From the NCBI GenBank assembly GCA_021825585.1, contig JAKAGT010000002.1, forward strand, positions 62,001 to 126,000: 64,000 nucleotides of DNA, written 5' to 3'. Shown here piece after piece: positions 493 through 52,722 of the stretch (position 1 is the first letter of the stretch; every line of letters begins with the position of its first letter). Origin of the DNA: Bacteroidota bacterium (GTDB lineage Bacteria; Bacteroidota; Ignavibacteria; Kryptoniales; JAKASW01). The notes beneath the pieces were generated by a model. The model was given only the letters and a program-made list of their open reading frames with translations, was not told where the DNA came from and made no database searches. The translations under genes were made by a program, and so were the position numbers.

Positions 493-532
493 TTACCCAA
501 TATATTGCCCAATTAGCCATTTATTACCCAAT
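493..532. repeat. Three short direct repeats in the hsdS/fic-hsdM spacer
   Basis: On the plus strand the 9-mer TTACCCAAT occurs at 493-501, as TTGCCCAAT at 505-513, and again exactly at 524-532, where the last copy overlaps the stop codon of hsdS/fic. The 74-base spacer is AT-rich. It may reflect a short tandem expansion or a recombination scar; no function is evident. Confidence 0.5.
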
Positions 533-4676: not shown

Positions 4677-4678
4677 TT

Positions 4679-6031: not shown

Positions 6032-6093
6032 ACCACAAATTCCCTATTCATTTCGGCCATGATCGGTTCCAACTTCTCGCCGAAAACCTGATT
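6028..6093 (-). pseudogene. Relic of a second hsdR 3' end
   Basis: The 21 codons before the TGA at 6030-6028 read NQVFGEKLEPIMAEMNREFVV. The end of the intact hsdR (about 7062-6997) reads AYQLFGERLEPVMADLNMELVR. The two align residue by residue without gaps but differ at the DNA level, so this is a diverged homologue and not a recent copy. The relic stop overlaps the TIR-APAZ start as GTGA, the same geometry by which the intact hsdR stop overlaps the HATPase gene start. It appears to be what remains of an hsdR gene that once directly preceded the SPARTA pair. Confidence 0.8.
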
Positions 6094-6124
6094 AGTGTTG
6101 GGGCACAATTCACGGCTGATGATT

Positions 6125-7000
6125 TCACCTTTTTGTTGTCCCTTTTCTAATCGCTCCTTTTGCTTTAGCCGTGAGTGAATAATAGCCTTTGCGCAATGAC
6201 CCTGTGAATTCTACCAGCCCGCCACCCCTGAGCAGTGCAACATCACGCTTTGCCGTGCGGGTCGACACATGAAGCATTTCCTGAATTCCACCCAACTTCA
6301 TCTCTTTTCCCTGAAACAACGCAATAATTAAAATGACGAGTCTCTGAAGAATGGGGTCATCAATGGTGCCACCAACGGTGACATGAATGGTGTCACGAAC
6401 ACTCTCAGCAACAGCATCCTCAACGGCATCAAGAACACCCTCACGAACAGCATCATGAACGGCATCCAGAACAATATCGCCGATGGGAATGGGAACTCTC
6501 TTGACGGGTCTCCTGAAAGTAACCGTAAAGAACGAATTGAACTCGAACTCAGGGGGAGGGAGCTTGGCTTGCTTGAGAATTTCTCTCATTCTGCTCACAC
6601 CAGTCCCCATCTTCTCCACATAACCGCTGCGGTGCAGTAAAGATGCAATATTTGGGTTCCTCAAAACGCTTCTCTTGCCGAAATTCTCGGGTGTCAAGCC
6701 CTTCACCAATCCACCGGGGTTGGATATCTCGACACGATCATCAAATATCTCCACCATTACATTAGCACCGCGCTCAAAGTAGTCGCGATGCGCAACGGCA
6801 TTGACCACTGCTTCTCTAAGGGCAGCCTCAGGTACCTGAAGGATTTCTCTTCGGCGTGAACGGCCAGTAATCTCATAACGAAGGGGGAGATTCCGCCTAA
6901 GGAATTTCAGAGTAGCCTCGATGTTAGCTAGCCTTTCTTTGAATTCTATCCGGTATCCTTCAAGTTCCTGCAATATGACTCTTAGCTCCTTGTCCGTCAC
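6125..7000 (-). CDS. AlbA/HATPase-type putative transcriptional regulator with internal deletion
   Basis: This 291-residue protein belongs to the predicted regulators with an N-terminal AlbA/Schlafen-like domain and a GHKL ATPase-like domain (COG2865-type). It begins like the family (ELRVILQELEGYRIEFKERLA). It then jumps at about residue 26 to NIEATLKFLRRNLPLRYEITG, which normally lies more than 150 residues later, so most of the AlbA domain seems deleted in frame. The GHKL N-box is present (REAVVNAVAHRDYFERG, 62-78) with DDRVEISNPGGLV and MGTGVSRMREIL. Residues 175-205 are an imperfect repeat (VLDAVHDAV, VLDAVEDAVAESVRDTI), and a winged helix follows. The GTG start overlaps the hsdR stop as GTGA. 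Such genes often accompany type I RM operons; the exact role is unknown. Confidence 0.8.
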   Translation of the reverse strand: MTDKELRVILQELEGYRIEFKERLANIEATLKFLRRNLPLRYEITGRSRRREILQVPEAALREAVVNAVAHRDYFERGANVMVEIFDDRVEISNPGGLVKGLTPENFGKRSVLRNPNIASLLHRSGYVEKMGTGVSRMREILKQAKLPPPEFEFNSFFTVTFRRPVKRVPIPIGDIVLDAVHDAVREGVLDAVEDAVAESVRDTIHVTVGGTIDDPILQRLVILIIALFQGKEMKLGGIQEMLHVSTRTAKRDVALLRGGGLVEFTGSLRKGYYSLTAKAKGAIRKGTTKR

Positions 7001-18620: not shown

Positions 18621-19331
18621 CTACTGCCTAAGTTGAAAATCCACGTTGACAGTACCATTCTGAGACACTACTGTCTTTACTGACTCGCTTTTGTAGTAAC
18701 CGAACCAAGCCCGGAGAATGTACGTCCCGGCGGGTATTCCCCTTATCTCGTAGTTACCTTCATGATCGGTCACGGCAAAATACGGATTCTGCAAAACCAC
18801 TATCCACGCCTGCATCTCAGGATGAATGTCGCAGAGAATGAGAGAAAAGCAGCCTGGCCTCTTAAACACGTGGGTCTTGCTTTCCCCCGGCGGGAACGAT
18901 CCCAGGTCGAAACTCCCTGCGCATTGAGAAGGCGTAAAGACATCATGGAGCACGTCGTCGTTGTTGAGAAATTTCACGGTCGTCCCGGCAAGAATCGGAA
19001 GGACTTCAGGCATGTATGCAAGATGTTTCTGATCCATGATGGCGTCCGTGTCCGGCGGAGCAAATACACTGTCCACATTCTCCACATATATAACTGCGTT
19101 TGCATTGCTCGACCCGTTCACAATAACCACCTTCCCCTTGACATCACCGGCACGGGCAATGACTGGAGCTAACAAGAAGGAAAGCATACAAATCACAGCC
19201 ATGAGGAACAAACGGGAACCCGGGAATCCGCTTCTCCGACAGTCCCCGGTATCAATACAGCGGGCGATTCGCGCGGCTCCGTCGGTCAGGTATATTGTTC
19301 CGGCTTCACTTTCCTGCTTCTGTCTTCGCAT
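18621..19331 (-). CDS. Cupredoxin-like secreted protein with C-terminal carboxypeptidase-regulatory domain
   Basis: Residues 55-165 form a plastocyanin-like domain: AGTTVKFLNNDDVLHDVF supplies one His ligand, and FSLILCDIHPEMQAW supplies Cys, His and Met in the spacing of a type 1 copper site. Residues 170-236 form a carboxypeptidase regulatory-like fold (YFAVTDHEGNYEIRGIPAGT). The long start at 19331 overlaps the upstream cytochrome gene by 26 bases. A start at 19202 (MAVICMLSFLLAPVIARAG) would give a standard signal peptide; neither has a clear ribosome binding site. As the last gene of the cytochrome operon it may be a periplasmic one-electron carrier. Proteins of this layout are often annotated as methylamine-utilisation-like. 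Confidence 0.8.
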   Translation of the reverse strand: MRRQKQESEAGTIYLTDGAARIARCIDTGDCRRSGFPGSRLFLMAVICMLSFLLAPVIARAGDVKGKVVIVNGSSNANAVIYVENVDSVFAPPDTDAIMDQKHLAYMPEVLPILAGTTVKFLNNDDVLHDVFTPSQCAGSFDLGSFPPGESKTHVFKRPGCFSLILCDIHPEMQAWIVVLQNPYFAVTDHEGNYEIRGIPAGTYILRAWFGYYKSESVKTVVSQNGTVNVDFQLRQ

Positions 19332-20463
19332 CTATGAAAAGATACAAAGATTTGACTTCATTTGGCAAAAGTATCGGGAGTTGTTTCCCTCTTGCGACCA
19401 GAAGCTCTTCCATTCGAGGGGCATGGTTCCACAGAGCCGCGAGGAAGTCATATTTATCGTGGAACGGCCCGAACTTCCCAATCGTTGGCGCGCCGAAATG
19501 GTTGCCGGCTTGGTGGCAGCTCTCACAACCTTTCTCTTTGAACAGCCGCGCGCCGAGCTCTGCCGATCCGGCAGTCTTCGGCGTGCCTTCGAAGTAAAGA
19601 TATGAAATCACGTCCGCCATCTGGTCTCCTGAAAATGACGGGAAAGGCCGTTTCAATGTCTTCATCGCCTCTGCCATTTTCCCCGAATGATTCCACATGA
19701 TACCTGCAATCTCGGTAACACTCTGGTCGGTGTAGATGCGGTCAATCTTCGGGCCGATCGGCTTTTCTGCGTGGCAATAATAGCATCCCTTCTCTTTGAA
19801 CAGCTGTTCGCCGCGAACGGGATTCCCCGGATACGAATATATCTCTTCATCCGACTTAAGTGAGCTTGCAGAGCGGATGTAAGCGGTAAGATCCGCAAAC
19901 TGGTCGTCTGAAAAAGTCGGGATCCTCACTCCCTTGGCAGCTCCCCGTCTGTGCATGAGTATCGAATGGTTCCACATTGCCTGTGCAAGCCTGACAGGGG
20001 ACACGTAAATCTTCATGCTGTCGAGCGCAATTTTTCCCCGAACGGGCTTGCCTATCGAATGGCAGCGTATGCAACCTTTGCTCACAAAGAGCCTTCTGCC
20101 GGTCGGTGCATTTCCGGGTTGTCCGAGATAGCGAATGAAGTATAGGAAGTCGCCGAGCCGACGGAAATCCCGGCCTGTAAAATGCGGCCTCTCAGTCTTC
20201 GTCCGCGCCATCACGAGAAGCATATTCCGGGAGTGGTTCCACATCTTAGAAAGGAGGTCGTAAGCGTTCCCGGGGAACACCTGTTTTCCAAAATCGGGCC
20301 CGATTTTACCGCCGGCTCCGTTCACGGCATGGCAGTTCAGGCAGCCTTCCTTCTCGAACACTTCCCTTCCGGCAAGTGGATTCTCCGGCAGCTGCTGCGC
20401 AGCCAGACCTGAAACAAGGAGTAGTAATATGAACGCGGTTCTTAGTGTAAAATTCTTCGCCAT
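19306..20463 (-). CDS. Tetrahaem cytochrome c made of four tandem mono-haem domains
   Basis: After a signal peptide (MAKNFTLRTAFILLLLVSGL, cut near LAAQ) the 385-residue protein has four repeats of about 90 residues. Each carries one haem site (CLNCH, CIRCH, CYYCH, CESCH) and then the motif M/L-W-N-H-S/A (KMWNHS, AMWNHS, IMWNHS, ALWNHA) with a Met a few residues on. Repeat starts are alike (GREVFEKEGC, GRRLFVSKGC, GEQLFKEKGC, GARLFKEKGC), so the gene grew by internal duplication. It should be a periplasmic electron-carrying wire. It follows the NrfD and small membrane subunits by 10 bases and is part of that operon. Confidence 0.9.
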   Translation of the reverse strand: MAKNFTLRTAFILLLLVSGLAAQQLPENPLAGREVFEKEGCLNCHAVNGAGGKIGPDFGKQVFPGNAYDLLSKMWNHSRNMLLVMARTKTERPHFTGRDFRRLGDFLYFIRYLGQPGNAPTGRRLFVSKGCIRCHSIGKPVRGKIALDSMKIYVSPVRLAQAMWNHSILMHRRGAAKGVRIPTFSDDQFADLTAYIRSASSLKSDEEIYSYPGNPVRGEQLFKEKGCYYCHAEKPIGPKIDRIYTDQSVTEIAGIMWNHSGKMAEAMKTLKRPFPSFSGDQMADVISYLYFEGTPKTAGSAELGARLFKEKGCESCHQAGNHFGAPTIGKFGPFHDKYDFLAALWNHAPRMEELLVARGKQLPILLPNEVKSLYLFIDAKTEAGK

Positions 20464-20473
20464 ACAGTTATCC

Positions 20474-20710
20474 TCATTTCACTTCATCAGCATATTTGTG
20501 GAGGCTGAAGAACACGTAAGACAGCACGCCGGCGAGTATCCAGAAGATGGTGATCGCCAATATGCTGATCCACAGCGAGGCCGTCTGCGTGTCCTTCACC
20601 TGATTGGCAACAACAACCAGGTTGATAAACCACAATGTCACACTTATTGCGAGTATCCAGTTGAATGAAAGAGTCATAAGCTGGATTAAGTAGATTGTTC
20701 TGTCTTTCAT
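20474..20710 (-). CDS. Small two-helix membrane protein of the electron-transfer operon
   Basis: The start at 20710 (MKDRTIYLIQLMTLSFNWIL) is preferred over the TTG at 20752 because GGGA lies upstream and the product then opens directly into a membrane segment. The 78-residue protein has two hydrophobic helices (about 12-35 and 46-68). Its position between the NrfD-like subunit and the tetrahaem cytochrome suggests an accessory subunit of the membrane complex, like the small subunits of alternative complex III. The sequence itself is not diagnostic. Confidence 0.7.
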   Translation of the reverse strand: MKDRTIYLIQLMTLSFNWILAISVTLWFINLVVVANQVKDTQTASLWISILAITIFWILAGVLSYVFFSLHKYADEVK

Positions 20711-20783
20711 ATTTACGATTCCCTTCGTCGTTCTAACAAGGAGTTGCTGCAAACAGCCGAGAACAATTCAACGCGGCCAAGCA

Positions 20784-22148
20784 TCATATCTCCGCCTTCA
20801 CCGATGCTTCGACACGGCTTTCCTCGGTCTTCCCCGGCAGATATTCCTTCAGGCGCATCGAGACCTCATGAACGCTGTGCTCCCTGCCTTCTTTTGTCTC
20901 CCAAATTGAAATGAGCGGGAACAATTTCGAAAAGCCCATGAAACCCAGCACGAACGCGGAAGTTGCCGCGGCGGCGATTCCTATTTCCGTAATGGATGGC
21001 GTGTACATTCCGGTCGGGTAAGGCAGTCTCGGGTTCGCGAGTGTGGGTATTATTATGATTAACCTCTCGAGCCACATTCCCACGACGACTCCTATCGAAG
21101 CGACCAGGATGCCTTTGATCGTCTTCGTCTTCTTATTGCTGAGAACGATAACCGGCATAAGGAAATTACAGAGGACCATTAGCCAGAAAAACGGCGCATA
21201 CGGCCCTACAAATTTATAAAGGAAGACTCTCATCTCTGCCGGTTCATGACCGTAGAAAGTCGTGAGGAATTCCGCAAAAGTGAAGTATGTCCAGAGCAAT
21301 GAGACGACAAGAAGCAGCGTCCCCAGATACTTGAAGTGAATCTCCTTCAGATAGTCTTCAAAGTGGTACACCTTTCTGAAGACGATCATGACAATCACGA
21401 GAGCTGCAATTCCGGAATAGATTGCACCGACCACGAAATACGGCCCGAATATCGTGCTGTGCCATCCGGGCTGCAGTGTCATTCCGAATATCCATGCGAT
21501 GATCGTGTGTACGGAGATCGCTATCGGAATCACCATGACCATGAGAATGTTTATTGCTCTTTCGAGCGCATGTTTCTGCTTCGGCGTTCCTTTGTATCCC
21601 CATGCCAGTATCTTGTAAAAGTTGTGCAGCTTACCGCCGCGATCACGAAGGAGAGCGATATCGGGGATCATCGGTATATAAAGGTAAATCGTGGATGCGG
21701 TGAAATACGCGGTCACGCTCGTGAGGTCCCAGAGCAGAGGCGACTGAAGCCGTCCCCTCTCGAAAAGGTGGAGAATCCTGTCGGGTCTTCCCAGGTCGAT
21801 TACAGGGTGGAGACCGCCGATCGCGAGGACTATTCCGGTGATGACTTCCGCCATCCTGGTGATCGGACGGCGCCATTCGGCTTTCGACAAGCGCAATATC
21901 GCGGAGATAAGGGTTCCTGCATGCGATATGCCGATGAAGAACACGAAGTCTATAATGTAGAACGCCCACGAGACGGGTTCATCCATGCCTGTGGCGCCGA
22001 GTCCGTAAAACAACTGGCGTATGTAGCAGCCCAATCCGAAGAGAAAAACCGCCGTCAGGACAATGACGATGATGTAGAAACTCCTGCTGCTTTCGTAGAT
22101 CGGCCTGAACAGTACCTCGTCTTCGTCGTGGAGATCTTGATAGCTCAT
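20784..22148 (-). CDS. NrfD/PsrC/ActC-type quinone-interacting membrane subunit
   Basis: The 454-residue protein has about ten membrane helices and the family features of QrcD, ActC and PsrC: WAFYIIDFVFFIGISHAGTL in helix 2, then HPVIDLGRPDRI, GWHSTIFGPYFVVGAIYSG and VGMWLERLIIIIPTL. This subunit holds the quinone site of CISM-type complexes and contacts the ferredoxin-like subunit. Gene order (pentahaem cytochrome, molybdopterin-like protein, FeS protein, NrfD) is that of qrcABCD. It would either reduce menaquinone with electrons from cytochromes or run the reverse; the sequence does not fix the direction. Confidence 0.9.
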   Translation of the reverse strand: MSYQDLHDEDEVLFRPIYESSRSFYIIVIVLTAVFLFGLGCYIRQLFYGLGATGMDEPVSWAFYIIDFVFFIGISHAGTLISAILRLSKAEWRRPITRMAEVITGIVLAIGGLHPVIDLGRPDRILHLFERGRLQSPLLWDLTSVTAYFTASTIYLYIPMIPDIALLRDRGGKLHNFYKILAWGYKGTPKQKHALERAINILMVMVIPIAISVHTIIAWIFGMTLQPGWHSTIFGPYFVVGAIYSGIAALVIVMIVFRKVYHFEDYLKEIHFKYLGTLLLVVSLLWTYFTFAEFLTTFYGHEPAEMRVFLYKFVGPYAPFFWLMVLCNFLMPVIVLSNKKTKTIKGILVASIGVVVGMWLERLIIIIPTLANPRLPYPTGMYTPSITEIGIAAAATSAFVLGFMGFSKLFPLISIWETKEGREHSVHEVSMRLKEYLPGKTEESRVEASVKAEI

Positions 22149-22164
22149 AATTGAATATCCTTCC

Positions 22165-22851
22165 TCATTCGATAGCGTTCAGGTAGCGGACTTTGGGGAC
22201 GGTGCCGAGTTCATCGAGGAGCGCGAACGAGCGGTAGTCCCGTGACTCTTTCGACACCTCGCTCTTCTTGTCGTCGAGATCTCCGAAAGAAATAGCATCC
22301 ACCGGGCAGGTCTCCACGCACGCCGGGACGTAATCGCCCGGCTCCATGTCGCGGTGTTCCGCCTTCGCCTTCTCCGATGCGATCTGGAGCCTGTGGATAC
22401 AGAACGTACACTTCTCGACAACGCCCTTCGGACGGACCGACACGTCAGGGTCGTAGCACTTCTCGACTTCCTTCGGCTGTTCGTTCCTGTCCCAGTTGAA
22501 CACCTTCACGGTGTACGGGCAGTTTGCCATGCAGTACCTGCAGCCTATGCACTGAGGATAAATCTGTGCCACAATGCCGACTTCATTCTTGTAAGTCGCT
22601 CTGACAGGACACACCTTGATGCACGACGGCTCGTCGCACTGCATGCAATTTCGCGGGAGCGTCTTCGGCCTGATGTTCGGGTAGTCGCCTTCGAACTCCA
22701 TCGTGAGCATCTTCATCCAGAACATAGCCCTGCCATGCTGAGCATCGTACTCGGACACGATCTGCACGTTGTTCTCAATCTTGCACGCCGTGACGCACGC
22801 CTGGCATGAGCTGCACTTGTTAAGATCTATTACCATTCCATACTTTGGCAT
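22165..22851 (-). CDS. Four-cluster ferredoxin-type subunit (QrcC/PsrB/NrfC-like)
   Basis: The 228-residue protein has four cysteine groups: CSSCQACVTAC, CMQCDEPSCIKVCP, CIGCRYCMANCP and CTFC with a distant CVETCP. This is the arrangement that binds up to four iron-sulfur clusters in CISM complexes. It should link the molybdopterin-like subunit to the NrfD membrane subunit. There is no export signal of its own, so it would travel with the Tat substrate encoded just upstream. It is 16 bases upstream of the NrfD gene. Confidence 0.92.
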   Translation of the reverse strand: MPKYGMVIDLNKCSSCQACVTACKIENNVQIVSEYDAQHGRAMFWMKMLTMEFEGDYPNIRPKTLPRNCMQCDEPSCIKVCPVRATYKNEVGIVAQIYPQCIGCRYCMANCPYTVKVFNWDRNEQPKEVEKCYDPDVSVRPKGVVEKCTFCIHRLQIASEKAKAEHRDMEPGDYVPACVETCPVDAISFGDLDDKKSEVSKESRDYRSFALLDELGTVPKVRYLNAIE

Positions 22852-22940
22852 CGGAGTTCCTCTCTAATGTGAACCTTTCTTACTGTATACACCTGACAAA
22901 AGCATGACGAGCTTCATAAGTTTCGGCAAGCATACGTGGT

Positions 22941-25100
22941 CTAAACAATCTTCACCTCAGTCTCCGACAATGACGGTTTTCCCGTCTCCTCATCGAACAC
23001 AGCATCAGAATATTGCATAGGATTAACTCCGTACACTTTTTTTGAAGCGGTGTGGCCCAGACCGAACGGAACATCTATATTCGCGGGCACAACGGCAGGA
23101 TTGTATATTACAAATGCCTCGAACGCGCCCTTGCCGGTCTTGACTTTGACTTTAGTTCTGTCTCCAACTGACAATCTCTTCGCGGTCGCCGGATTTATCT
23201 CAATCCATGTCTCATAGTAGACATCTTTATCCATGCCGAACTGCTCGGTCAACACAGGATTTCGCAGCATGTTACCTCTGTAGTCGAAATTCCTGTGGAA
23301 TATGTTCAGCTTCAGCGAATTTCCCCGGGCATTCTTGCCTGGCTGATCACCCCGCCCGTTGGCCGTCAGGTGATCCACTGTTAGCGAAACGGCGGGTTTG
23401 TATTTTGAAGTCTGCGGAAAAGGATCCCACCATCCGCCGTGCTTCAGCATTTGCTGCCAGAATTCGTCAAAGCTGGAATAAGACGCCATCTGCCATCCCG
23501 CCTGGTGCAGGCTCTTCTCAAGACCGGTCGGTTTCTGCTGGTTCATCAGCATTCCCTTCCCATGCTTGTACACAGGTTTCAGGTAGCTCTGTAGATAATC
23601 CTCGTATTTCTTGCAGGACCAGTTCTTGGACAATTTGAGATCGGCGATCAAAGAGACGATCACGTCGCCGGTGTGGACCGTCGAATAGAACGGCTTGACG
23701 ACCGGCTGTTGCGTGCTGATAACAGGGGCGCCGGTAACCGTGGAACTGAACGCGTCCAGTTTTTCGAGATCGTCGTGATCCGGAATGATGAGGTCGGCCA
23801 GCTCACTTGTCTCGTCGATGAACGGAGAGAAGCTGATCACCATCGGAATGTCCGAAATGGCTTTACGGAGATCATCCTGGCCGGGCGAGTTAAACACGAA
23901 GTTACTCCTGTAGATCATCAGTATTTTGATGTCTTTGTCTCCGATGAGCATGCGGCTGTTCCATGATGACTGAGGCGACTCGTTCTCCTTTTTATTCTCA
24001 AAATCAGGGAGCTCACGATCTTTCAGTTTTCCGTATCCGGCAAATCCCTTGAGGGCGTTCAGCGCGACAACTGCATACGCGTTCCTCATTCCGCTGGACG
24101 AATACAATATCGACTCGTCGAAATACGCGACCGGGGCCGAGGCGTTCGCGAACTTGCGCGCGGTCTCGATAAGATATTTGGAAGCGACACCGGTTCGGCT
24201 CTCGACCGCCGCCGGGCTGTAGTTCTCCATGACAAGCTTCTTGAAACCGTCGAAATCCTTGAATTCATTCCCGACAAACGTCTTGTCGTACGTGCCATCG
24301 GTCAGGATAACGTAAGCGAGGCCGAGTGCCACATCCACGTAAAATTCCGGCGAAACAGGAACCCATCGGTTTGCCTTGTAAGCGTCTGGCGTGAGCTTCG
24401 GTGAGAACGTCGAGAATTCATTTCTCTTCGCTCTGAAGTCGTTCATCGAGCGCGAGAAATAAAGGGGGCTTTCGGAAATCTCCGTAAGCTGTGAACCGAA
24501 GTTCACGATGTAATCGCACGATTCAAAATCTATGAAGTCGGGATGGTCTGCCGCGGCGCGGTCGAACGGCATCGACGATGATGAAGCGAAATTGTCGACG
24601 ACGACTTTCTCCGATTCGAGACCTGCCATCAACTGCTTGATCAAACCGCCCATGAAAGCTGAATCGGTCTGAGCCACGAAAGCCGCCTTCCCTTTGCCGT
24701 TGCTCGACAGGGCGTTTGTCAGAATCCCGTAGGCTTCCGCATACGATATTTCCTGAAACCTGCCGTTCACTTTCTTCATCGGAGAAGTAAGCCGGTCAGG
24801 ATGATAGAGATTCTCGACAGAGGTCAGTCCCATCGGACAAATTCCCCCCTTGTTCATAGGCGAGAGGGGATTTCCGAAAGCCTGGACCGGAAATTTGTCG
24901 ATCATACGAACGCGGAGCCCGCACTTGCCGGGACACTTGGCACAGGTAGTCACTTTCCAGGTTTCGACGTGCGGTCCGCTATAAAGAAGCGGGACGACCA
25001 TACCGGGAATCTTGAGGAGGGCATCCCCGGCTCCACCAACCGCGAATCCGATCAACGACCCGCCCAGAAGTTTTGCAAAGTCTCGTCTATTCATTTCCAT
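22941..25100 (-). CDS. Tat-exported molybdopterin-oxidoreductase-family subunit (QrcB/ActB-like)
   Basis: The start at 25100 is preferred because GAGGAA lies 7 bases upstream and the product then opens with a twin-arginine signal (MEMNRRDFAKLLGGSLIGFA). The 719-residue protein has one [4Fe-4S] motif (CAKCPGKC, Cys53, 56, 60, and Cys88 in GGICPMG) and the fold markers of the family (SYAEAYGILTNAL, YIVNFGSQLTE, NGRGDQPGKNA near the C-terminal domain). The usual Mo ligand region reads DNFASSSSMPFDRA with no Cys or Sec, so the protein may lack a metal at the pterin site, as QrcB and ActB do. It would then act as a structural and electron-transfer subunit. Confidence 0.87.
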   Translation of the reverse strand: MEMNRRDFAKLLGGSLIGFAVGGAGDALLKIPGMVVPLLYSGPHVETWKVTTCAKCPGKCGLRVRMIDKFPVQAFGNPLSPMNKGGICPMGLTSVENLYHPDRLTSPMKKVNGRFQEISYAEAYGILTNALSSNGKGKAAFVAQTDSAFMGGLIKQLMAGLESEKVVVDNFASSSSMPFDRAAADHPDFIDFESCDYIVNFGSQLTEISESPLYFSRSMNDFRAKRNEFSTFSPKLTPDAYKANRWVPVSPEFYVDVALGLAYVILTDGTYDKTFVGNEFKDFDGFKKLVMENYSPAAVESRTGVASKYLIETARKFANASAPVAYFDESILYSSSGMRNAYAVVALNALKGFAGYGKLKDRELPDFENKKENESPQSSWNSRMLIGDKDIKILMIYRSNFVFNSPGQDDLRKAISDIPMVISFSPFIDETSELADLIIPDHDDLEKLDAFSSTVTGAPVISTQQPVVKPFYSTVHTGDVIVSLIADLKLSKNWSCKKYEDYLQSYLKPVYKHGKGMLMNQQKPTGLEKSLHQAGWQMASYSSFDEFWQQMLKHGGWWDPFPQTSKYKPAVSLTVDHLTANGRGDQPGKNARGNSLKLNIFHRNFDYRGNMLRNPVLTEQFGMDKDVYYETWIEINPATAKRLSVGDRTKVKVKTGKGAFEAFVIYNPAVVPANIDVPFGLGHTASKKVYGVNPMQYSDAVFDEETGKPSLSETEVKIV

Positions 25101-25110
25101 TTTAAATTCC

Positions 25111-25620
25111 TCATCTGTGGCAATGCGAACAGTCTGTGGTGACATGATGCTTCTCGTGGCAGTTCCAGCAGTTCTGCATTTTGATCTGGAGGAACTGTGT
25201 CTTTGGCGGCGAGTCGAGTGCCGCCATGTCTCCGTGACAAAGCTTGCAATTGAGTTTGCCTATCGCGACATGCCTGCGATGCGAAAAATAAACGTAGTCA
25301 GGAACATGATAAATATTATACCACGGTATCTGCTTGTGCTCGCTGACGTATTTATACACGAGCAGTTCCTGAGGCGTCTTCTGCATCGGCGTCGAGTGGC
25401 ACGCTCCACATACTTCGATATTAGGAATGCTCGCACGCGCACCGAGCATGACGTTCTGGTGACAGGCCATGCAGGGGATTCTGAATTTCCCTGCATGAAT
25501 AGCGTGGCTGAAAACTATCGGCTGGGTGAACTTCTCTTCTCTATCCACCGCCGTGTTCACCACGACAACTCCCGCCGAAAAGCCTATCACAATCGCGAGT
25601 AGTACCAGTTTATTTTTCAT
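25111..25620 (-). CDS. Pentahaem cytochrome c subunit (QrcA/ActA-like)
   Basis: The 169-residue protein starts with an uncleaved-looking membrane anchor (MKNKLVLLAIVIGFSAGVVV) and carries five haem sites: CMACH, CGACH, CKLCH, CWNCH, CSHCH. Extra His residues (FSHAIHAGKF, FSHRRHVAIG) can serve as distal ligands, the cytochrome c7/c3 pattern. ActA of alternative complex III has five haems and QrcA six, so by haem number this one is closer to ActA. It is the first subunit of the complex and lies 10 bases upstream of the molybdopterin-like gene. Confidence 0.92.
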   Translation of the reverse strand: MKNKLVLLAIVIGFSAGVVVVNTAVDREEKFTQPIVFSHAIHAGKFRIPCMACHQNVMLGARASIPNIEVCGACHSTPMQKTPQELLVYKYVSEHKQIPWYNIYHVPDYVYFSHRRHVAIGKLNCKLCHGDMAALDSPPKTQFLQIKMQNCWNCHEKHHVTTDCSHCHR

Positions 25621-25645
25621 GATGCGTCACTAATCTGTGGACCAC

Positions 25646-25666
25646 GCGAAGGCTCCGGACCTTCGC
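25646..25666 (-). other. Intra-operon hairpin
   Basis: A perfect 7-bp stem (GCGAAGG and CCTTCGC) with a 7-base loop lies in the 67-base spacer between the mono-haem and pentahaem cytochrome genes. It has no T-run. It could protect or process the transcript and so set different amounts of the upstream Cyc2-like and downstream complex subunits. Confidence 0.5.
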
Positions 25667-25687
25667 ATGGTTATTGTGAAAGATTTA

Positions 25688-26104
25688 TTATTCAATGGTT
25701 CTGAGGAATTCCAACACCGCGCGTGCCTGATCCTTCGTAAGCTGCTGGTCGGGCATCTTGGGAACGTTTGAAAATTGCTCCATCAGCGCCTTGATGGTCG
25801 GATCTTTCGCCTGCATCTCCGCAGTATTGAGCAGGTAGTTCATGATGAAGACAGGAGTCTGTTTCTTTGCCACTCCGTGGAGAGGCGGTGCAAGTTTTGT
25901 CTGGTTTATGCTGTGGCAAAGGTAGCACTTCGAATAGAAAATCGAGCTTCCTTCACTCACGAGACTCTGGTCTATTTTCCCTAATGTCACCGACTTGATC
26001 GGTCCGATGCCGTTGTCGACGCCGCCCTTCCTGGCCATTGCGAATCCCATGAGGGCAGAGACGAGCACCGACACTAAAATTGACGAGAATATTTTCGCTT
26101 TCAT
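25688..26104 (-). CDS. Mono-haem class I cytochrome c
   Basis: The 138-residue protein has a signal peptide (MKAKIFSSILVSVLVSALMG), one haem site (SKCYLCHSI), LAPPLHG after it, and a Met ligand candidate in VPKMPDQQLTKDQARAVLEF near the C-terminus, the usual class I layout. It lies between the Cyc2-like porin cytochrome (14 bases upstream) and the pentahaem subunit. This is where a periplasmic shuttle between outer and inner membrane would be expected. Confidence 0.9.
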   Translation of the reverse strand: MKAKIFSSILVSVLVSALMGFAMARKGGVDNGIGPIKSVTLGKIDQSLVSEGSSIFYSKCYLCHSINQTKLAPPLHGVAKKQTPVFIMNYLLNTAEMQAKDPTIKALMEQFSNVPKMPDQQLTKDQARAVLEFLRTIE

Positions 26105-26118
26105 TTTTGCACTCCTTT

Positions 26119-27486
26119 CTAAAACGCGAACCAGGTTAACAAATACAATGTATTGTTATCGGAAGCGTTTCTACCGAAACCATCATAGTTGGTAGATCCG
26201 CCGTTGAACTTTGAATAAGCGACATATTGCAGCGATATCTGTGTGTTGAGCCAGGGGATGTAAGAGACCTGCGCAGTAATCCCGCTGCTGTTCGGAGAGC
26301 CGTTTGCGCTGCCGGTTACCGACGCTGGCGAATAGAAGACGGCGTCGCTCGTTCCGGTCGTCGTGAAGTATCCCAGTGCGACCTGGAACGGCGCCGGGAA
26401 GTTGTAGTTGGCGTCAATCTTAAATGTGTTGAGAGTCAGACTGTTTGAAGATGATCCGCCAGCCGCAAATGTTGCATCAAGATTTTGCTTTTCGGTTATG
26501 TAGCCAGCATGCGCGATAAGTTCGCCGCCGCCGAGCGCCTTCTCGTACTGCGCGTCGAAGCCGATGTCCGTGTACGTGTCGTACGGGCCGGAAATCCCCA
26601 CGGGGAACAAGCTCGACGACAGTCCGAAAGTCCCGACCTCGAGATACTGGTTACCCCAACTGTGCTGCATCGCGATACGCCAGTAGGGAGATACGCCTTT
26701 TATGTTGTCCGTCCAGGTTGAATCGGCCGGATAGGAAAGCCCCTGAATGGCAGAGTGATAAGCACTCACTCCGACATATAGGAGATTATCGTAAAGCCCG
26801 TATACACCGAGCCCGAGCACGTTGCCGGACATCGCATTGTCGAGGATAGGCGACCATGACGGCGTCGGAGCCGACGCTGATGACGCGTATGGAAATCCCC
26901 AAGCAGGCGTCGTGTTCCACACGTCCTCCATGGATGGGTTGTTGTTGAGCGTTATTCCGTAAAGCAGGTCGTTGCCGGCAAGCATCGTGTGATCCGCATA
27001 CCTGAACTCTGCCATGTCCATACCGATCGTGCCTGCCGATGGATCGTAAGTAAGCTGGATGTACGAGCCAAGCTTCGGGGTAAGTTCACCCGACAGGAAG
27101 AAGCTCAGCTGCTGAGGGAACTCCGTTGCGCTTGCCTCTGCCCCGGGTGTCGCCTTGCTGACCTGACTGAATGACGTCATCACCATCGCAGACAACGGGA
27201 AGCTGCTGAGTATCTGCAGATCGTTAGTCTGGTTGTGAGCAGCGACCAAAGTCGGGCTTCCGACCATGGTGTATCCGTTCAGCTTGAACAGTCTGCCGAA
27301 CGGAGTGAGCTGCGGGAAGTTGTAATGACAGGCGCTGCAGGCCATTCCGGTTTGTCGGGCATAGCTCGGTATGCAATAAGCATTCGAGCTCGAGAAAATC
27401 ACGATAGCCCCCACCAGAGCCGCCACAAGCGAGAGTGTCCTGCCGCTCTTCCCTAATGTCTTTCCTGCGTGTAACAATGACTGCAT
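26119..27486 (-). CDS. Cyc2-like fused cytochrome-porin (outer membrane)
   Basis: The start at 27486 is fixed by GGAGG upstream. After a signal sequence (to about residue 37) comes PSYARQTGMACSACHYNFPQ, then LTPFGRLFKLNGYTM. That is the short N-terminal mono-haem segment (CSACH, 50-54) typical of Cyc2-like proteins. The remaining roughly 380 residues are an outer-membrane beta-barrel rich in alternating strands and ending TLYLLTWFAF with a C-terminal aromatic. Cyc2 of iron-oxidising bacteria takes electrons from Fe(II) through the barrel to periplasmic cytochromes. Many Cyc2-like proteins are uncharacterised, so the donor here is an inference. At 455 residues it is in the family range. It is the second gene of the sigma-54-preceded operon. 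Confidence 0.82.
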   Translation of the reverse strand: MQSLLHAGKTLGKSGRTLSLVAALVGAIVIFSSSNAYCIPSYARQTGMACSACHYNFPQLTPFGRLFKLNGYTMVGSPTLVAAHNQTNDLQILSSFPLSAMVMTSFSQVSKATPGAEASATEFPQQLSFFLSGELTPKLGSYIQLTYDPSAGTIGMDMAEFRYADHTMLAGNDLLYGITLNNNPSMEDVWNTTPAWGFPYASSASAPTPSWSPILDNAMSGNVLGLGVYGLYDNLLYVGVSAYHSAIQGLSYPADSTWTDNIKGVSPYWRIAMQHSWGNQYLEVGTFGLSSSLFPVGISGPYDTYTDIGFDAQYEKALGGGELIAHAGYITEKQNLDATFAAGGSSSNSLTLNTFKIDANYNFPAPFQVALGYFTTTGTSDAVFYSPASVTGSANGSPNSSGITAQVSYIPWLNTQISLQYVAYSKFNGGSTNYDGFGRNASDNNTLYLLTWFAF

Positions 27487-27535
27487 ATTTGCCTCCACAG
27501 TATTTCTTATGAGTCTCATTTGAAGCATCAACTCT

Positions 27536-27919
27536 TCAGTTCGTGCGCCGCCTGTTTTGCAGGCAGCTTCGCACGGCATGCTGCAGCTCCTTCAGTTCCA
27601 GCGGTTTCAAAAGGAGATAGCTGGCTCCGTATAACTTCAGCTCGGACTCGCTCACCGTATCTGGATACCCGGTTATTGCGATGATGGGAATCTTCGGTTG
27701 AAGTCTCTTGGCATTGATCACGAAAGCGACTCCCGTTTCGAGGTTCAGCCTGAGGTCGGTTATCAGGAGATCGAATTTTTCTTCCTGCATTCTGCGAAGC
27801 GCTTCTTCCGGAGCCGGGGCCGCTGCCATCAGACACCCCTCACGTTTCAGGAAATCCTGAAATGCGAGAAGGATGTTTGTGTCATCATCGAAAACCAAAA
27901 CTTTAGGTCTGTGTGTCAT
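27536..27919 (-). CDS. Single-domain response regulator
   Basis: This 127-residue CheY-like receiver has the acidic pair in VLVFDDDTN, phosphoacceptor Asp55 (LLITDLRL), Thr83 (AITGYP) and Lys105 (LLLKPLE). It has no output domain. It is the first gene behind the sigma-54 promoter and is followed by the Cyc2-like gene after 49 bases. It may be a phosphate sink or partner for the nearby kinase. No clear ribosome binding site precedes the ATG, and the predicted leader is only about 16 bases. Confidence 0.9.
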   Translation of the reverse strand: MTHRPKVLVFDDDTNILLAFQDFLKREGCLMAAAPAPEEALRRMQEEKFDLLITDLRLNLETGVAFVINAKRLQPKIPIIAITGYPDTVSESELKLYGASYLLLKPLELKELQHAVRSCLQNRRRTN

Positions 27920-27946
27920 GATGCTACAGCATTCGGGACTAGAGCG

Positions 27947-27961
27947 GCAAAGGGTGTGCCA
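27947..27961 (-). promoter_or_regulatory. Sigma-54 promoter of the Cyc2/cytochrome operon
   Basis: The minus strand reads TGGCAC-ACCCT-TTGC. It matches the consensus TGGCAC-N5-TTGC at every position, with GG and GC 12 bases apart as required. The predicted transcription start is near 27935, 16 bases before the response regulator ATG. The NtrC-type activator and its kinase are encoded directly upstream. Confidence 0.85.
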
Positions 27962-28033: not shown

Positions 28034-28050
28034 GACAAGCGGCGCTTGTC
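28034..28050. promoter_or_regulatory. 17-bp palindrome, candidate enhancer site for the NtrC-type regulator
   Basis: GACAAGC-GGC-GCTTGTC is a dyad with perfect 7-bp arms. Its centre lies about 107 bases upstream of the predicted sigma-54 start site, where bacterial enhancer-binding proteins normally bind. It is not followed by a T-run on either strand, so a terminator is less likely. Confidence 0.6.
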
Positions 28051-28128: not shown

Positions 28129-30618
28129 CTACGCCACTCCGGCGGCAAGCGTCGGGTGCACGAGCGGCAGGATTATCCTGAACTTAGTACCGGCGCCGGT
28201 ACTGCTCTCGACCATGATGATTCCCCCGTGTCCATTGACGACGCGTTTCGCCATGGAGAGACCCAGGCCGGTGCCGTTCAGCTTCGTCGTGAAGAACGGG
28301 TCAAATATCTTCGACAGATTCCCCTTCTCGATTCCCGGGCCGGTATCGCTTATTTCTATCTGCACGCACCCGGTTCCCTTTTTCAGCACAATTTCCTCCA
28401 GATCCGGATTCTGATCCGTCAAAGGTTCCGCCAGTTCAACGTACATGAAATCTCTCAACGATTTACCGAGCCTTGTGGTCTTCGTGGAAATAGAAATCGT
28501 TGAAGCTTGCTGCCCGATATGCTCCCTTTGCTGCAATGAAAAGTCACGGTTTTCTATCGCCTGAACCGCGTTGAGTATAATATTCACAAGTGCTTCTCTG
28601 AGATGAACGACGTCCAGCGACAAATCAGGCAACGCCGCCTGCAAATTTGTATCAATGCTTACCGCGGCTTTGTCAGCCCTCACCTTGACAAATGCTGCGC
28701 TTTCTTCGATGACTTTGTTGACGGAAGCCGTCTTGAAGTCCATCTTCGTCGGTCTTGCAAATCCAAGAAGCTCCGACACCGTCGTCTCCATCCTGTAGGC
28801 GGAATTCAAAGCCACGGTCAGCGATTCCTTTTTGGATTCGTCAAGGTCCTGCGACTCACTTATCAGCTGCAGTATCATTTTAATGGAAGTCAGTGAATTC
28901 CTGAACTCGTGGGCGATGAACGCAGCAAGCTCGCCCATCGTCGCGAGTTTCTCCGTCTTTACAAGATGCTGTTCGAGCCGTTTCCTGCTTGTCACATCGG
29001 TGACGATCTCCAGGATTGCGTCTATCTCTCCGTCCTTTTCCATCGGCACGGCGAAGTGTTCGATGTACCTGTCGGTGCCGTCTGAATTCAACACCTGGTC
29101 CAGGTGCACCTCGACTTTCCCAGTTTGAATTACGCTTTGGCTCATGCAAGTCTGGCAGAAGCCCGCAGCACAGAAGAAATCCCCGCAATTCTTTCCGATA
29201 ACCTGCTCGGGTTGGTATCCGGTGACTCTCGCGAAAGCCGCACTGACTGTCTGTATCCTCAGTTTCTTGTCGAGAACGAGGAGCGCGCTCGGCACATTAT
29301 CGAGTATCGTTTGCAGCTTCGATTTCTCATCCGAAAGCTCCTTCGTCCGTTCGGCCACCGTTCTCTCAAGACTTGCCCTGTGGTTTTGGAGCTCCTTATC
29401 ACGGACCATAAGCGACTCTGCCATCGTGTTTAATTGGTCCGCGAGCTTCTCTATCTCGTCGCGTGTCTCGATCTTGAGCCGATGCTTATAGTTTCCGCTT
29501 GATATGATCTCTGCCCCTCTCCTCATTTCCCCGATCGGTTTTGTGAATTGTCGTGTCGCAAGAAGGCTGAGCGTCACGGACAAAATCAGGAAACCGACAA
29601 TCGCTCCACCGAACGCGAAGGTCGCAGAGTAGACGGGTCCCATCAGAACTTCCTTCGGCATCGCCTCGACGACGAACAAAGGCATGGAGAAAGCCGCTTC
29701 GATGTCCTGTCCACCGGCTGTGTGGACATTCGGGAAAAGCGGTGCGTATGAGACCACTTGCTTTATACCGCTGGATATGATTCCGCTTTTGCCGGAGAGG
29801 AGTTGAGCGGAGACCGGAGCGGGGTATTCGGTCTTGATGTCGGCCCTGGCCAATAAGAAGAGTTTGTTCCAATCCCGCTTCCGCTGCGAATCGTAGAGGA
29901 AGTGCCCGTCCCCACTGACCAGGAATAATCTTCTGTCATATTTGTGAGAGGAGTCGGATTGCATCGTTTGGAAGAATCTCGACGCGAAAACATCTGCTAC
30001 TAAAATTCCTGCTCTCTTGCTGCCGATATAGAGAGGCGTTGCGAAGCTGATTACTGCCACGGGTCTGCCGTTCTCACCGAGGACCTCTCCCGGCGAAAAG
30101 ACCGTTCGGTCCTTCTTCAAAGAATCGGTGAGAAAGACATAATAGTATTCAGGGTTCCGGCTGAGGTCCTTCTGCGGTGACACGGCGAACCCGCCGGAAC
30201 CGAATTTGCCCGAAGTGGCACCCACCCGGACGATCTCCTCTCCTGACCTGTCGAGGATCGCAATCCTGTAGTAGACATTCTTCGTCTTGATAAAATCGAG
30301 AAGCTCCGATTGAAGCGGGCGCAGCGTTGTCAGTACTTCATTGTCCGCAAGCTGCGCATCAACGGGTCGGAACGGGGAGGAGTCCGACAGGAATTTCAAA
30401 TCCGTTTGGATACCCCCAAGAAAATCTCCGGCGCGCTGCCGGACCATCTGCATGTCGTTGTCGAGATTCCGCGTCGCCGTGTCCACAAGATTGCCCGCCG
30501 TGGCCCAGACCGCAAAGACTCCGACGATCGCTATCGGAATTATAGACAGGCCGGTGAATGCAATGATCAGTTTTGTGCGTATCGACAGCCAGGGGAAAAG
30601 GCGATTGATGTTGATCAA
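28129..30618 (-). CDS. Membrane sensor histidine kinase (dCache-HAMP-PAS-HisKA-HATPase)
   Basis: The 829-residue protein has a first membrane helix (14-42), an extracytoplasmic dCache-like sensor domain (about 50-310), a second helix (325-350, AFGGAIVGFLILSVTLSLLA), HAMP (350-405), a coiled coil, a PAS domain (about 435-540), the phosphorylation helix AAFIAHEFRNSLTSIKMILQ, and a GHKL ATPase (N-box ALVNIILNAVQAIEN, then DTGPGIE and NGTGLGLSMAKRVVNGHGG). The PAS domain holds a cysteine group (CGDFFCAAGFCQTCMSQ) seen in a subset of NtrB-like kinases, possibly redox- or metal-linked. It lies 10 bases after the NtrC-type regulator gene, and the two should form a pair. Confidence 0.93.
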   Translation of the reverse strand: MININRLFPWLSIRTKLIIAFTGLSIIPIAIVGVFAVWATAGNLVDTATRNLDNDMQMVRQRAGDFLGGIQTDLKFLSDSSPFRPVDAQLADNEVLTTLRPLQSELLDFIKTKNVYYRIAILDRSGEEIVRVGATSGKFGSGGFAVSPQKDLSRNPEYYYVFLTDSLKKDRTVFSPGEVLGENGRPVAVISFATPLYIGSKRAGILVADVFASRFFQTMQSDSSHKYDRRLFLVSGDGHFLYDSQRKRDWNKLFLLARADIKTEYPAPVSAQLLSGKSGIISSGIKQVVSYAPLFPNVHTAGGQDIEAAFSMPLFVVEAMPKEVLMGPVYSATFAFGGAIVGFLILSVTLSLLATRQFTKPIGEMRRGAEIISSGNYKHRLKIETRDEIEKLADQLNTMAESLMVRDKELQNHRASLERTVAERTKELSDEKSKLQTILDNVPSALLVLDKKLRIQTVSAAFARVTGYQPEQVIGKNCGDFFCAAGFCQTCMSQSVIQTGKVEVHLDQVLNSDGTDRYIEHFAVPMEKDGEIDAILEIVTDVTSRKRLEQHLVKTEKLATMGELAAFIAHEFRNSLTSIKMILQLISESQDLDESKKESLTVALNSAYRMETTVSELLGFARPTKMDFKTASVNKVIEESAAFVKVRADKAAVSIDTNLQAALPDLSLDVVHLREALVNIILNAVQAIENRDFSLQQREHIGQQASTISISTKTTRLGKSLRDFMYVELAEPLTDQNPDLEEIVLKKGTGCVQIEISDTGPGIEKGNLSKIFDPFFTTKLNGTGLGLSMAKRVVNGHGGIIMVESSTGAGTKFRIILPLVHPTLAAGVA

Positions 30619-30627
30619 TGCCGTGGC

Positions 30628-32046
30628 CTATTGCCTTTTCCGGAAATCGTCTGCGTCGATGCCGTGTTTGGAGACCAGCCGCTGGAAATTCTGCCTTGTC
30701 ATGCCGGACGAACGGGCCGCCGCCACGATGCTTCCCTGACACTTTTTCAATATCTCAACTACAAACGACTTCTCAAACCTGTCGATAGCCCGCTTTCTTG
30801 CATCGGCAAAATTGCCGCCGTCGCATCCGTATTCTCCGTTCGACTGCATGCCCGCCAGGTCTCCAAGTCCGCGTGATGTAATAACATCCTGCTTTGCCAT
30901 GACAGCTGCCCGCTCGACAATATTCTCAAGCTCGCGGACGTTACCCGGATATTGCAGATGGACGAGAACCTCCAATGCATCCCCGGAAAAACCCGCTATC
31001 TTTTTCCTGAACCGCTCCGAGTACTTTGCAAGAAAATAGTCCGCGAGGACGGGTATATCCTCCCGCCGTTCACGCAGCGGGGGTAGACTGATGACGATGA
31101 CGTTCAGCCGGTAGAAGAGATCCTTCCTGAAGCTTCCTTTACTGACCTCTGCTTCAATGTCCCTGTTAGTCGCCGCAATGAACCTCGCACCCACTTCTAT
31201 GGTCTCGTTCGAGCCGAGCCGCTCGAATTGTCGTTCCTGGAGCACCCTAAGAAGTTTTTGCTGGAGCATCGGCGAGAGATCGCCTATCTCATCAAGGAAA
31301 ATCGTACCATGTTTTGCTATTTCAAACTTTCCGGGCTTTCTCTCGTTAGCGCCGGTGAAGGCCCCTTTTTCGTACCCGAAGAGTTCCGATTCAAGCAGCG
31401 TCTCCGGCACTGCAGTGCAATTAACCGCGATGAACGGCTGCCCCGAGTCTGCTCCATAGCTGTGGACGGCCCTTGCAACAAGCTCCTTTCCGGTTCCGCT
31501 TTCGCCCAACAAAAGCACCGGAGTAAGATTAGGCGTAGTGGAGATGGATCCGATCAGTTTGTATATGTATTGCATCTGCGGACTCTTGCCGACCAGTTCA
31601 TACTTGTCGGCAAATTCCGCCTTGAGCGGGTCCGCAGGGCCGTGCGACTTCTCAATTCCCTCCAGCCGCGCTATCGCCTCTCCCGTTACCTTCCGCACCT
31701 GCTGGATGTCAAGTGGCTTCGTCAGGTAATCGAATGCGCCAAACTGCATCGCGCGCACAGCCGTCTCGACTGTGCCGTATCCCGTAACCATTATGACGGG
31801 CAGCGTCGGATTTCTCTTCTTCATTTCCTTGAGCGTATCCAATCCGTTCATGCCCGGCATATTTATGTCCATGAAAACGAGTCTCAGGTTCTCATCGGGT
31901 AGGATTTCCAGACCTTTCAGCGCATCGCCCGCAGTTACAACGGCGTAACCGTCATTCAGGAATAACTGCTTGAGTGCGTAGACGATTCCCTCGTCATCGT
32001 CTATTACAAGAATTTTGTGCTTCTCGTTCTCCATCATTTTCGACAT
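30628..32046 (-). CDS. NtrC-family sigma-54-dependent response regulator
   Basis: The 472-residue protein has three domains. The receiver has phosphoacceptor Asp60 (FMDINMPG). The AAA+ domain has Walker A GESGTGKE (181-188), the sigma-54 contact loop GAFTGA (228-233) and GTIFLDEIGDLS. The C-terminal Fis-type helix-turn-helix is GSIVAAARSSGMTRQNFQRL. All residues needed to drive sigma-54 open-complex formation are present. With the kinase downstream it forms a two-component system whose most obvious target is the sigma-54 promoter 2.7 kb further on, in front of the Cyc2 operon. Confidence 0.95.
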   Translation of the reverse strand: MSKMMENEKHKILVIDDDEGIVYALKQLFLNDGYAVVTAGDALKGLEILPDENLRLVFMDINMPGMNGLDTLKEMKKRNPTLPVIMVTGYGTVETAVRAMQFGAFDYLTKPLDIQQVRKVTGEAIARLEGIEKSHGPADPLKAEFADKYELVGKSPQMQYIYKLIGSISTTPNLTPVLLLGESGTGKELVARAVHSYGADSGQPFIAVNCTAVPETLLESELFGYEKGAFTGANERKPGKFEIAKHGTIFLDEIGDLSPMLQQKLLRVLQERQFERLGSNETIEVGARFIAATNRDIEAEVSKGSFRKDLFYRLNVIVISLPPLRERREDIPVLADYFLAKYSERFRKKIAGFSGDALEVLVHLQYPGNVRELENIVERAAVMAKQDVITSRGLGDLAGMQSNGEYGCDGGNFADARKRAIDRFEKSFVVEILKKCQGSIVAAARSSGMTRQNFQRLVSKHGIDADDFRKRQ

Positions 32047-46049: not shown

Positions 46050-46063
46050 GTTGGGAGCGCAAC

Positions 46064-46327: not shown

Positions 46328-46370
46328 CCGCAGCCGGACTCCGGCGCAGCTCGCCTATATAGTATCGTGC

Positions 46371-48251: not shown

Positions 48252-48278
48252 TACGTCACCGGACTCGAAGAATTTTGG

Positions 48279-52719: not shown

Positions 52720-52722
52720 TTG

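Follow-up and report, generated by a model that had tools for sequence, protein, structure and literature searches.

Described systems closest to the operon

The Cyc2 proteins assayed to date are Fe(II) oxidases, and function within the family is least certain at a distance from the tested members (PMC8406198). The combination of Cyc2 with an alternative complex III (ACIII) that has split actB1/actB2 genes and the motif CX2CX3CX27C is a set common to neutrophilic iron oxidisers (PMC4643136, PMC5566968). A Cyc2-ACIII pathway in iron oxidisers is an earlier proposal, not a new one, and its basis has been co-presence and protein expression. The operon described here shares with the Mariprofundus/Gallionellaceae model (PMC5566968, PMC4643136) a Cyc2-type porin-cytochrome, the split B1 and B2, the order A-B1-B2-C and the cysteine motif of B1. 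However, it contains neither ActD nor ActF, and His139 of ActC is replaced by Asp. In addition, the cyc2 and act locus tags lie far apart in Ferriphaselus genomes, whereas they are joined here in a single operon with a sigma-54-type promoter-like site of its own. Our literature search found no published report of Cyc2 and ACIII in one operon, and no paper treating both Cyc2 and QrcABCD.

The Fe(II) chain of Acidithiobacillus ferrooxidans (Cyc2, rusticyanin, cytochromes, bc1 and aa3) likewise combines a Cyc2-type protein with c-type carriers and a complex III, and is paralleled by a possible cupredoxin in our operon and by the bc-type complex of a second locus (L042) in the same genome. The operon differs from this chain in having no oxidase genes, in replacing bc1 with an ACIII-like complex and in the expected use of menaquinone instead of ubiquinone. 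QrcABCD of sulfate reducers also has separate B and C subunits, a multihaem A and one NrfD protein. Nevertheless, the NrfD protein of the operon is about 35% identical to ActC and only about 22% to QrcD, and most residues of the QrcD proton path are absent from it. Canonical ACIII plus caa3, encoded in the same genome on contigs C3 and C84, resembles the operon in its ActC-type quinone module and pentahaem A. However, ActB on C3 is fused, and both loci include a second NrfD and an adjoining oxidase, neither of which is present in the operon.

Operon organization and conservation

The window comprises the whole 64,000-nucleotide stretch of DNA that was analysed. The genes that the earlier note had listed are all present on the - strand at 18621-27919, with intergenic gaps of -44 to +89 bp, and Pfam and NCBIfam confirmed the molybdopterin-like, four-cluster ferredoxin, NrfD, c-type cytochrome and receiver proteins (Table 1). 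The gene order is NtrC, histidine kinase, response regulator, Cyc2-like porin-cytochrome, monohaem c, pentahaem A, B1, B2, NrfD, small membrane protein, four-haem c and cupredoxin-like protein; the four cytochromes carry 1, 1, 5 and 4 haems in this order. The earlier list had omitted the small membrane protein, which has no family match in Pfam or NCBIfam, and the regulator genes that stretch as far as 32046. What had been called a tetrahaem wire does hold four haems, arranged in four tandem monohaem domains with a WNH-type motif after each haem site. The cupredoxin-like protein shows only a ligand-like H..C..H..M pattern and gives no Pfam cupredoxin match; the L042 paralogue of this protein gives a weak Copper-bind match.

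Table 1. Genes and putative regulatory elements of the Cyc2-like operon
Feature	Position	Strand	Evidence
Cupredoxin-like domain + CarboxypepD_reg domain	18621..19331	-	Pfam CarboxypepD_reg 1.5e-10; LHDVF..CDIHPEM
Four tandem monohaem c domains	19306..20463	-	Haems at residues 41, 131, 227, 313
Small protein, two hydrophobic stretches	20474..20752	-	Orthologue in all operon copies extending that far
ActC-type NrfD membrane subunit	20784..22148	-	6btm_C, E 1e-71
ActB2/QrcC-like four-cluster Fe-S subunit	22165..22851	-	QrcC 258 bits, cut-off 400
ActB1/QrcB-like molybdopterin-family subunit	22941..25145	-	QrcB 244 bits, cut-off 440; alignment
Pentahaem cytochrome, ActA/QrcA-like	25111..25620	-	NCBIfam QrcA 94 bits, cut-off 180; five CXXCH
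Class I monohaem cytochrome c	25688..26104	-	Pfam Cytochrom_C 6e-8; recurrent Cyc2 neighbour
Cyc2-like fused cytochrome-porin	26119..27579	-	CIPSYARQT..CSACH..FPQL; 16 barrel strands in model
Stand-alone receiver domain, first gene of operon	27536..27919	-	Pfam Response_reg 3e-19
Sigma-54-type -24/-12 site TGGCACACCCTTTGCC	27946..27961	-	GGCA + TTG conserved
Palindrome GACAAGCGGCGCTTGTC	28034..28050		Core largely retained across aligned orthologous upstream regions
Membrane histidine kinase: dCache sensor, HAMP, PAS	28129..30618	-	Pfam; conserved neighbour
NtrC-family sigma-54-dependent response regulator	30628..32046	-	Pfam Sigma54_activat 4.8e-67 + receiver domain

The operon is a genuine unit, and its order is common to seven species in the genus, two of them truncated at contig ends. 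The search of other genomes, which the earlier note had suggested, revealed an identical order from the regulators through the cupredoxin gene in G002, G005, G008 and G010, whose proteins are 52–92% identical; G001 and G006 share this order up to their contig ends. Three further loci (L070-L072) also carry the downstream portion, and the porin gene heads the cluster in every copy.

The NtrC-type regulator occupies the equivalent position in orthologous loci extending that far. Two promoter-like elements, a sigma-54-type site and a palindrome, are situated upstream of the operon. The GGCA and TTG elements of the sigma-54-type site recur at the matching position in six orthologues and in the L042 paralogue; the assignment rests on this conservation, since such sites are not rare and their count within the window is not significant. 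The palindrome occurs once in the window (0.25 expected) and only once genome-wide at ≤2 mismatches, and is probably a binding site for the NtrC-type regulator.

Quinone module and Cyc2-like protein

A pentahaem ActA-like subunit and the ActB domains B1 and B2 are encoded in the operon, with B1 and B2 as separate proteins, as in iron oxidisers (PMC4643136). The pentahaem subunit is 34% identical to the genome's own ActA, B1 starts with a Tat-like RRDF sequence and contains CX2CX3CX27C, and B2 matches the C-terminus of ACIII ActB (6f0k_B, E 9e-53). The phylogenetic tree groups the NrfD subunit, which probably holds the quinone site, with ActC (94/95 support). Based on the half-channel residues listed for ActC (PMC5928083), it retains 14/14 cytoplasmic and 5/6 periplasmic positions, in comparison with 1–2/14 cytoplasmic positions in QrcD. 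At the quinol site, all copies retain Asp169 and show replacement of His139 by Asp and of Asp253 by Ile; all three residues are retained in L118. Within the operon, neither an ActD family match nor a second NrfD (ActF) was found, although such subunits may be encoded elsewhere. These two replacements and the absence of both subunits from the operon imply that quinol oxidation and pumping may differ from those of ACIII.

The Cyc2-like protein (486 aa, against a minimum of at least 365 for the family) contains a single CXXCH, in CSACHYNFPQL, with PXL four residues on. The family motif AXPXFAR[QK][TY] ahead of CXXCH (PMC8406198) reads CIPSYARQT in the window, where the A->C and F->Y changes are both conservative, and SIPSFARQT in relatives such as L076. 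The real start of the gene may lie downstream of the annotated one, beyond the point where the receiver gene ends. An AlphaFold2 model (mean pLDDT 75.8) predicts 16 barrel strands, with the haem region poorly modelled; the best fold matches of the barrel are general porins, and no relative was found in the PDB. The haem site, PXL and modelled 16-strand barrel suggest that the porin shares most of the features used to recognize Cyc2. Homologues with 29–39% identity reside on plasmids of Burkholderiaceae, Acidithiobacillus and Acidiphilium; the Cyc2 phylogeny covered homologues only.

The same genome encodes at L042 a 58%-identical Cyc2-like protein paired with Rieske and cytochrome b proteins. 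The Cyc2 pair also adjoins a Rieske/cytochrome b type gene in G003, G004, G007 and G009, followed in G004 by caa3 genes. These relatives carry a Rieske/cytochrome b complex in place of the ACIII-like module. Among the 80 nearest Cyc2 loci, core genes of complex III or ACIII lie near Cyc2 in 29; they account for 11.5% of the genes found up to 4 kb away and 0.5% at 6–11 kb (p = 5e-13, a value that overstates the enrichment because the loci are related). The union of porin, carriers and quinone complex in one unit with its own promoter-like site, together with the replacement of the quinone module by a bc-type complex in closely related genomes, lends physical support to a functional link. A dedicated route linking the quinone pool with the Cyc2-like protein of the outer membrane, as the earlier note had envisaged, is well supported.

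Proposed electron flow through the operon products

The operon probably exchanges electrons with dissolved iron. We propose that its products form a single conduit linking the menaquinone pool with the cell exterior, in which electrons would pass from the ActC-type site through B2 to pentahaem A, and then through monohaem, four-haem or cupredoxin-like periplasmic carriers to the haem that the Cyc2-like porin carries, where contact with dissolved iron would take place within the barrel; the class I monohaem cytochrome is a probable periplasmic partner. Menaquinol oxidation would drive Fe(III) reduction while the ActC-type module translocates protons, although the conduit should be reversible. 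The sequence leaves the direction of flow unsettled and lends itself to two readings, of which uptake from Fe(II), as first suggested, is one. We lean slightly to Fe(III) reduction, since neither RuBisCO nor acetyl-CoA synthase was found in the 13 genus genomes searched for them and no caa3-type oxidase was seen in G005, a single draft genome (98% complete) that carries the operon; autotrophy through rTCA may nevertheless occur. NCBIfam assigns no name to the COX1 relative of G005, which, judging from its sequence, we take to be a quinol NO reductase.

A conduit running inward, in line with the Barco and Kato model, would have Fe(II) reduce the Cyc2-like haem and the monohaem cytochrome feed the ACIII-like complex, which would reduce menaquinone at the expense of the pmf; other electrons would go to caa3. 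The verified activity of Cyc2 proteins, the layout shared with neutrophilic iron oxidisers and the Rieske/cytochrome b and caa3 neighbours in relatives favour this direction, and aerobic Fe(II) oxidation is possible because 12/13 genus genomes have caa3-type COX1. However, the operon itself contains no oxidase, G005 shows no caa3, and the menaquinone branch would serve chiefly CO2 fixation, for which the two markers above were not found. Furthermore, transfer from Fe(II) to menaquinone is a steep climb by established potentials. Inward flow appears only slightly less likely than outward flow. A role of the Cyc2-like protein with a different metal, with a redox-active small molecule or in redox stress would suit the many homologues in organisms that are not known iron oxidisers, soil bacteria among them, and the uncertainty of function far from the tested proteins, but is unlikely given the iron-rich habitat of the nearest relatives and the repeated pairing of Cyc2 with quinone complexes.

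The earlier note had likened the quinone step to Qrc. A Qrc-type enzyme that reduces menaquinone with low-potential electrons from the periplasm, beside which the porin would be a mere neighbour, would agree with the best scores of subunits A, B and C on Qrc models and with the DsrK, AprAB and sulfate adenylyltransferase encoded in the genome. All four NCBIfam Qrc equivalog scores, however, fall below their cut-offs (Table 1; QrcD, 40 of 570 bits), and a true ACIII ActB is picked up by the QrcB and QrcC models as well. Of the residues that form the proton path and quinone site in QrcD, the NrfD protein retains D120, S138, Y150 and R358, with Y88 unaligned, but lacks D70, N100, Y110, E157, E164 and H199, of which D70 and Y110 are essential (PMC13059093). 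The small cytochromes of the operon are class I and not c3-type, and the fixed place of the porin gene at the cluster head does not suit a mere neighbour. The residue test thus mostly refutes a Qrc-type enzyme, which appears very improbable and is ruled out as the main reading by residues, tree and cut-offs. The cysteine motif of B1 was dropped from this comparison, since genuine QrcB proteins also keep such cysteines.

The reading that we tentatively prefer is the conduit between menaquinone and the outside that favours menaquinol oxidation and Fe(III) reduction at acidic pH and low oxygen. It fits a heterotroph of iron-rich acid sediment, and the nearest relatives were found at sites of acid mine drainage (site codes DBS, WY and MAS; PMC12153355). 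More speculatively, a Cyc2-type protein might be the terminal reductase for Fe(III) and receive its electrons from a dedicated, reduced ACIII-like complex that has Asp at the quinol site; the two would represent genetically fixed Fe(III) respiration in acid-sediment Bacteroidota/Ignavibacteria. The operon offers a compact unit for expression and makes it testable whether Cyc2 can be reversed as an Fe(III) reductase and whether the presence of Cyc2 denotes iron oxidation. A published model for At. ferrooxidans already runs Fe(III) reduction from quinone through bc1, cytochrome and rusticyanin to Cyc2, and Acidiphilium cryptum JF-5 is an Fe(III) reducer (PMC8790237); the latter strain carries a Cyc2-like homologue.

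Operon structure and control

Ten genes in a tight cluster, with intergenic gaps of -44 to +89 bases, are predicted to encode a conduit from Cyc2 to a quinone complex resembling alternative complex III (ACIII), confirming the proposal of the earlier note that the porin and the quinone complex share one operon. They are transcribed in the order receiver protein, Cyc2-like porin, monohaem cytochrome, pentahaem cytochrome, molybdopterin-family protein, four-cluster ferredoxin, NrfD protein, small membrane protein, four-haem protein and cupredoxin-like protein. Genes further upstream encode a histidine kinase with a dCache sensor and an activator of the NtrC type. The search for the same operon elsewhere, proposed in that note, revealed the whole gene order, including the upstream regulators, in four genomes of the genus (G002, G005, G008 and G010; protein identity 52-92%) and the same order up to the contig ends in two others (G001 and G006). 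The downstream part is also present at three further loci (L070-L072), with lower identity and with homologous regulators wherever the locus extends to them. This conservation is far beyond the chance level.

Aligned upstream regions of the orthologues contain a conserved sigma-54-type site and a mostly retained palindrome, GACAAGC-N3-GCTTGTC; its -24/-12 elements are also present before the paralogue in the second Cyc2-like locus of the window genome (L042). No second match to the palindrome was found in the 4.97 Mb genome with up to two mismatches allowed. This uniqueness, together with the conserved upstream sites, implies that a dedicated two-component switch is likely, with a regulon of one operon and a regulator that would bind the palindrome.

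Coordinates of features in the window and of one locus elsewhere in the genome
Feature	Position	Strand	Content
Restriction-modification locus	532-9750		Specificity and Fic domains in a single protein; EcoEI-type R subunit
Operon	18621-27919	-	Ten genes
Four-haem protein	19306-20463	-	Four tandem domains, WNH(S/A)..M-type motif after each haem site
Sigma-54-type site	27946-27961
Palindrome	28034-28050
Glycan-degradation cluster	44004-62936		GH2, GH94, two glucoamylase-like, rhamnosidase-like and glutaminase A-like proteins
L151	C33, 50000-69000		DsrK and neighbouring Dsr-like genes, sulfate adenylyltransferase, AprA, AprB, HdrA-like (Qmo-like) proteins

The porin and the quinone complex

The haem region of the porin is CIPSYARQTGMACSACHYNFPQLTPFGRLFKLNGY. 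Compared with the Cyc2 consensus of AXPXFAR[QK][TY], haem site and PXL (PMC8406198), the haem site and PXL are present with correct spacing, and AXPXFAR[QK][TY] carries two conservative changes that are absent from relatives. An AlphaFold2 model based on 36 homologues has 16 barrel strands and matches general porins in Foldseek; its haem region is poor (pLDDT about 33 to 52). In a tree drawn from homologues alone (112 sequences), one clade unites the operon-type proteins found in the genus with those of L070-L072, and its closest relative is a bc-linked paralogue of the window genome (L008; SH-aLRT 92). Homologues encoded on plasmids of Burkholderiaceae, Acidithiobacillus ferrooxidans and Acidiphilium share 29-39% identity with it; in most of the cases inspected, a gene for a c-type cytochrome lies shortly downstream. 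Besides the window gene and L008, the genome harbors more Cyc2-family genes (L009-L014); those on contigs C65 and C28 are near copies that branch far away from the window type. Upstream of Cyc2, loci L075 and L076 encode a protein of ~680 aa resembling a secreted M13-type peptidase, and L073, L077 and L126 have ORFs of similar length there.

The quinone complex had been likened to Qrc (QrcABCD of sulfate reducers) or ACIII; the Qrc side of that comparison is corrected here to ACIII-like. None of its subunits reached the Qrc equivalog cut-offs. In the window genome, the fused ActB of canonical ACIII (L155) also matches the QrcB and QrcC models, so such matches do not separate ACIII from Qrc; NrfD is the discriminating subunit. 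It shares 34-36% identity with ActC and about 20-25% with genuine QrcD (from genomes above the NCBIfam cut-off; numbering checked via residue spacing), clusters with ActC in the tree (support 94/95), and lacks the QrcD residues D70, N100, Y110, E157, E164 and H199, of which D70 and Y110 are indispensable to QrcABCD (PMC13059093). It retains all 14 cytoplasmic and 5 of 6 periplasmic half-channel positions of ActC (residues listed in PMC5928083); QrcD has 1-2 of the 14 cytoplasmic ones. Within the ActC quinol site, Asp169 is retained, His139 is replaced by Asp and Asp253 by Ile. The ActB1/QrcB-like (B1) and ActB2/QrcC-like (B2) subunits are separate proteins and B1 carries CX2CX3CX27C, as in ACIII of neutrophilic iron oxidisers (PMC4643136); unlike canonical ACIII, the operon contains neither ActD nor ActF. 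Given these mixed features, the complex is best labelled ACIII-like and is assigned to neither ACIII nor Qrc. Canonical ACIII genes adjoining caa3 oxidase genes are located separately, at L154 (C84) and L155 (C3).

Interchangeable quinone modules

The shared theme is Cyc2 with a quinone:cytochrome c oxidoreductase, the kind of oxidoreductase being interchangeable. L042 comprises genes for a kinase, NtrC, receiver, Cyc2-like protein, monohaem protein, Rieske protein, a cytochrome b fused to cytochrome c, and a cupredoxin-like protein. In G003, G004, G007 and G009 the Cyc2-monohaem pair adjoins a gene of the cytochrome b type that encodes two haem c sites; in G004, whose whole locus was inspected, this is a Rieske/cytochrome b pair, after which caa3 genes follow. 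In many Acidobacteria, Rieske and cytochrome b genes come directly after Cyc2, and one acidobacterial locus (L118) encodes Cyc2, a cupredoxin-like protein, pentahaem A, B1, B2, an ActC that has His139, ActD and a monohaem protein. Within 4 kb of Cyc2, 46 of 401 genes are complex III/ACIII core genes; at 6-11 kb they number 2 of 421.

Direction of electron flow

In Fe(II)-oxidation models of the Cyc2 plus ACIII type, the quinone branch leads to reducing power for CO2 fixation. Neither RuBisCO nor acetyl-CoA synthase was found in the 13 genus genomes searched, which argues weakly against uptake of electrons from Fe(II) via the porin into the quinone pool; moreover, G005 (98% complete) has the operon, yet its COX1 search shows only a distant relative, presumably an NO reductase. 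In favour of uptake are the caa3-type COX1 of 12 genus genomes and the fact that Cyc2 with ACIII has already been put forward for Fe(II) oxidation (PMC5566968, PMC4643136). Many glycoside hydrolases are encoded within the window. Because a heterotroph would need an acceptor more than uphill electrons, we lean cautiously towards electron export and consider uptake somewhat less probable. For export, a published hypothesis for At. ferrooxidans has electrons pass from quinol to Cyc2, acting as Fe(III) reductase, by way of bc1, cytochrome and rusticyanin; Fe(III) reduction is also described for heterotrophic Acidobacterium and Acidiphilium (PMC8790237). The nearest named relatives are MAGs coded DBS, WY and MAS, codes that match acid mine drainage areas (PMC12153355).

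Elsewhere in this partly aerobic, glycan-degrading genome, the genes of L151 are predicted to serve dissimilatory sulfur metabolism.
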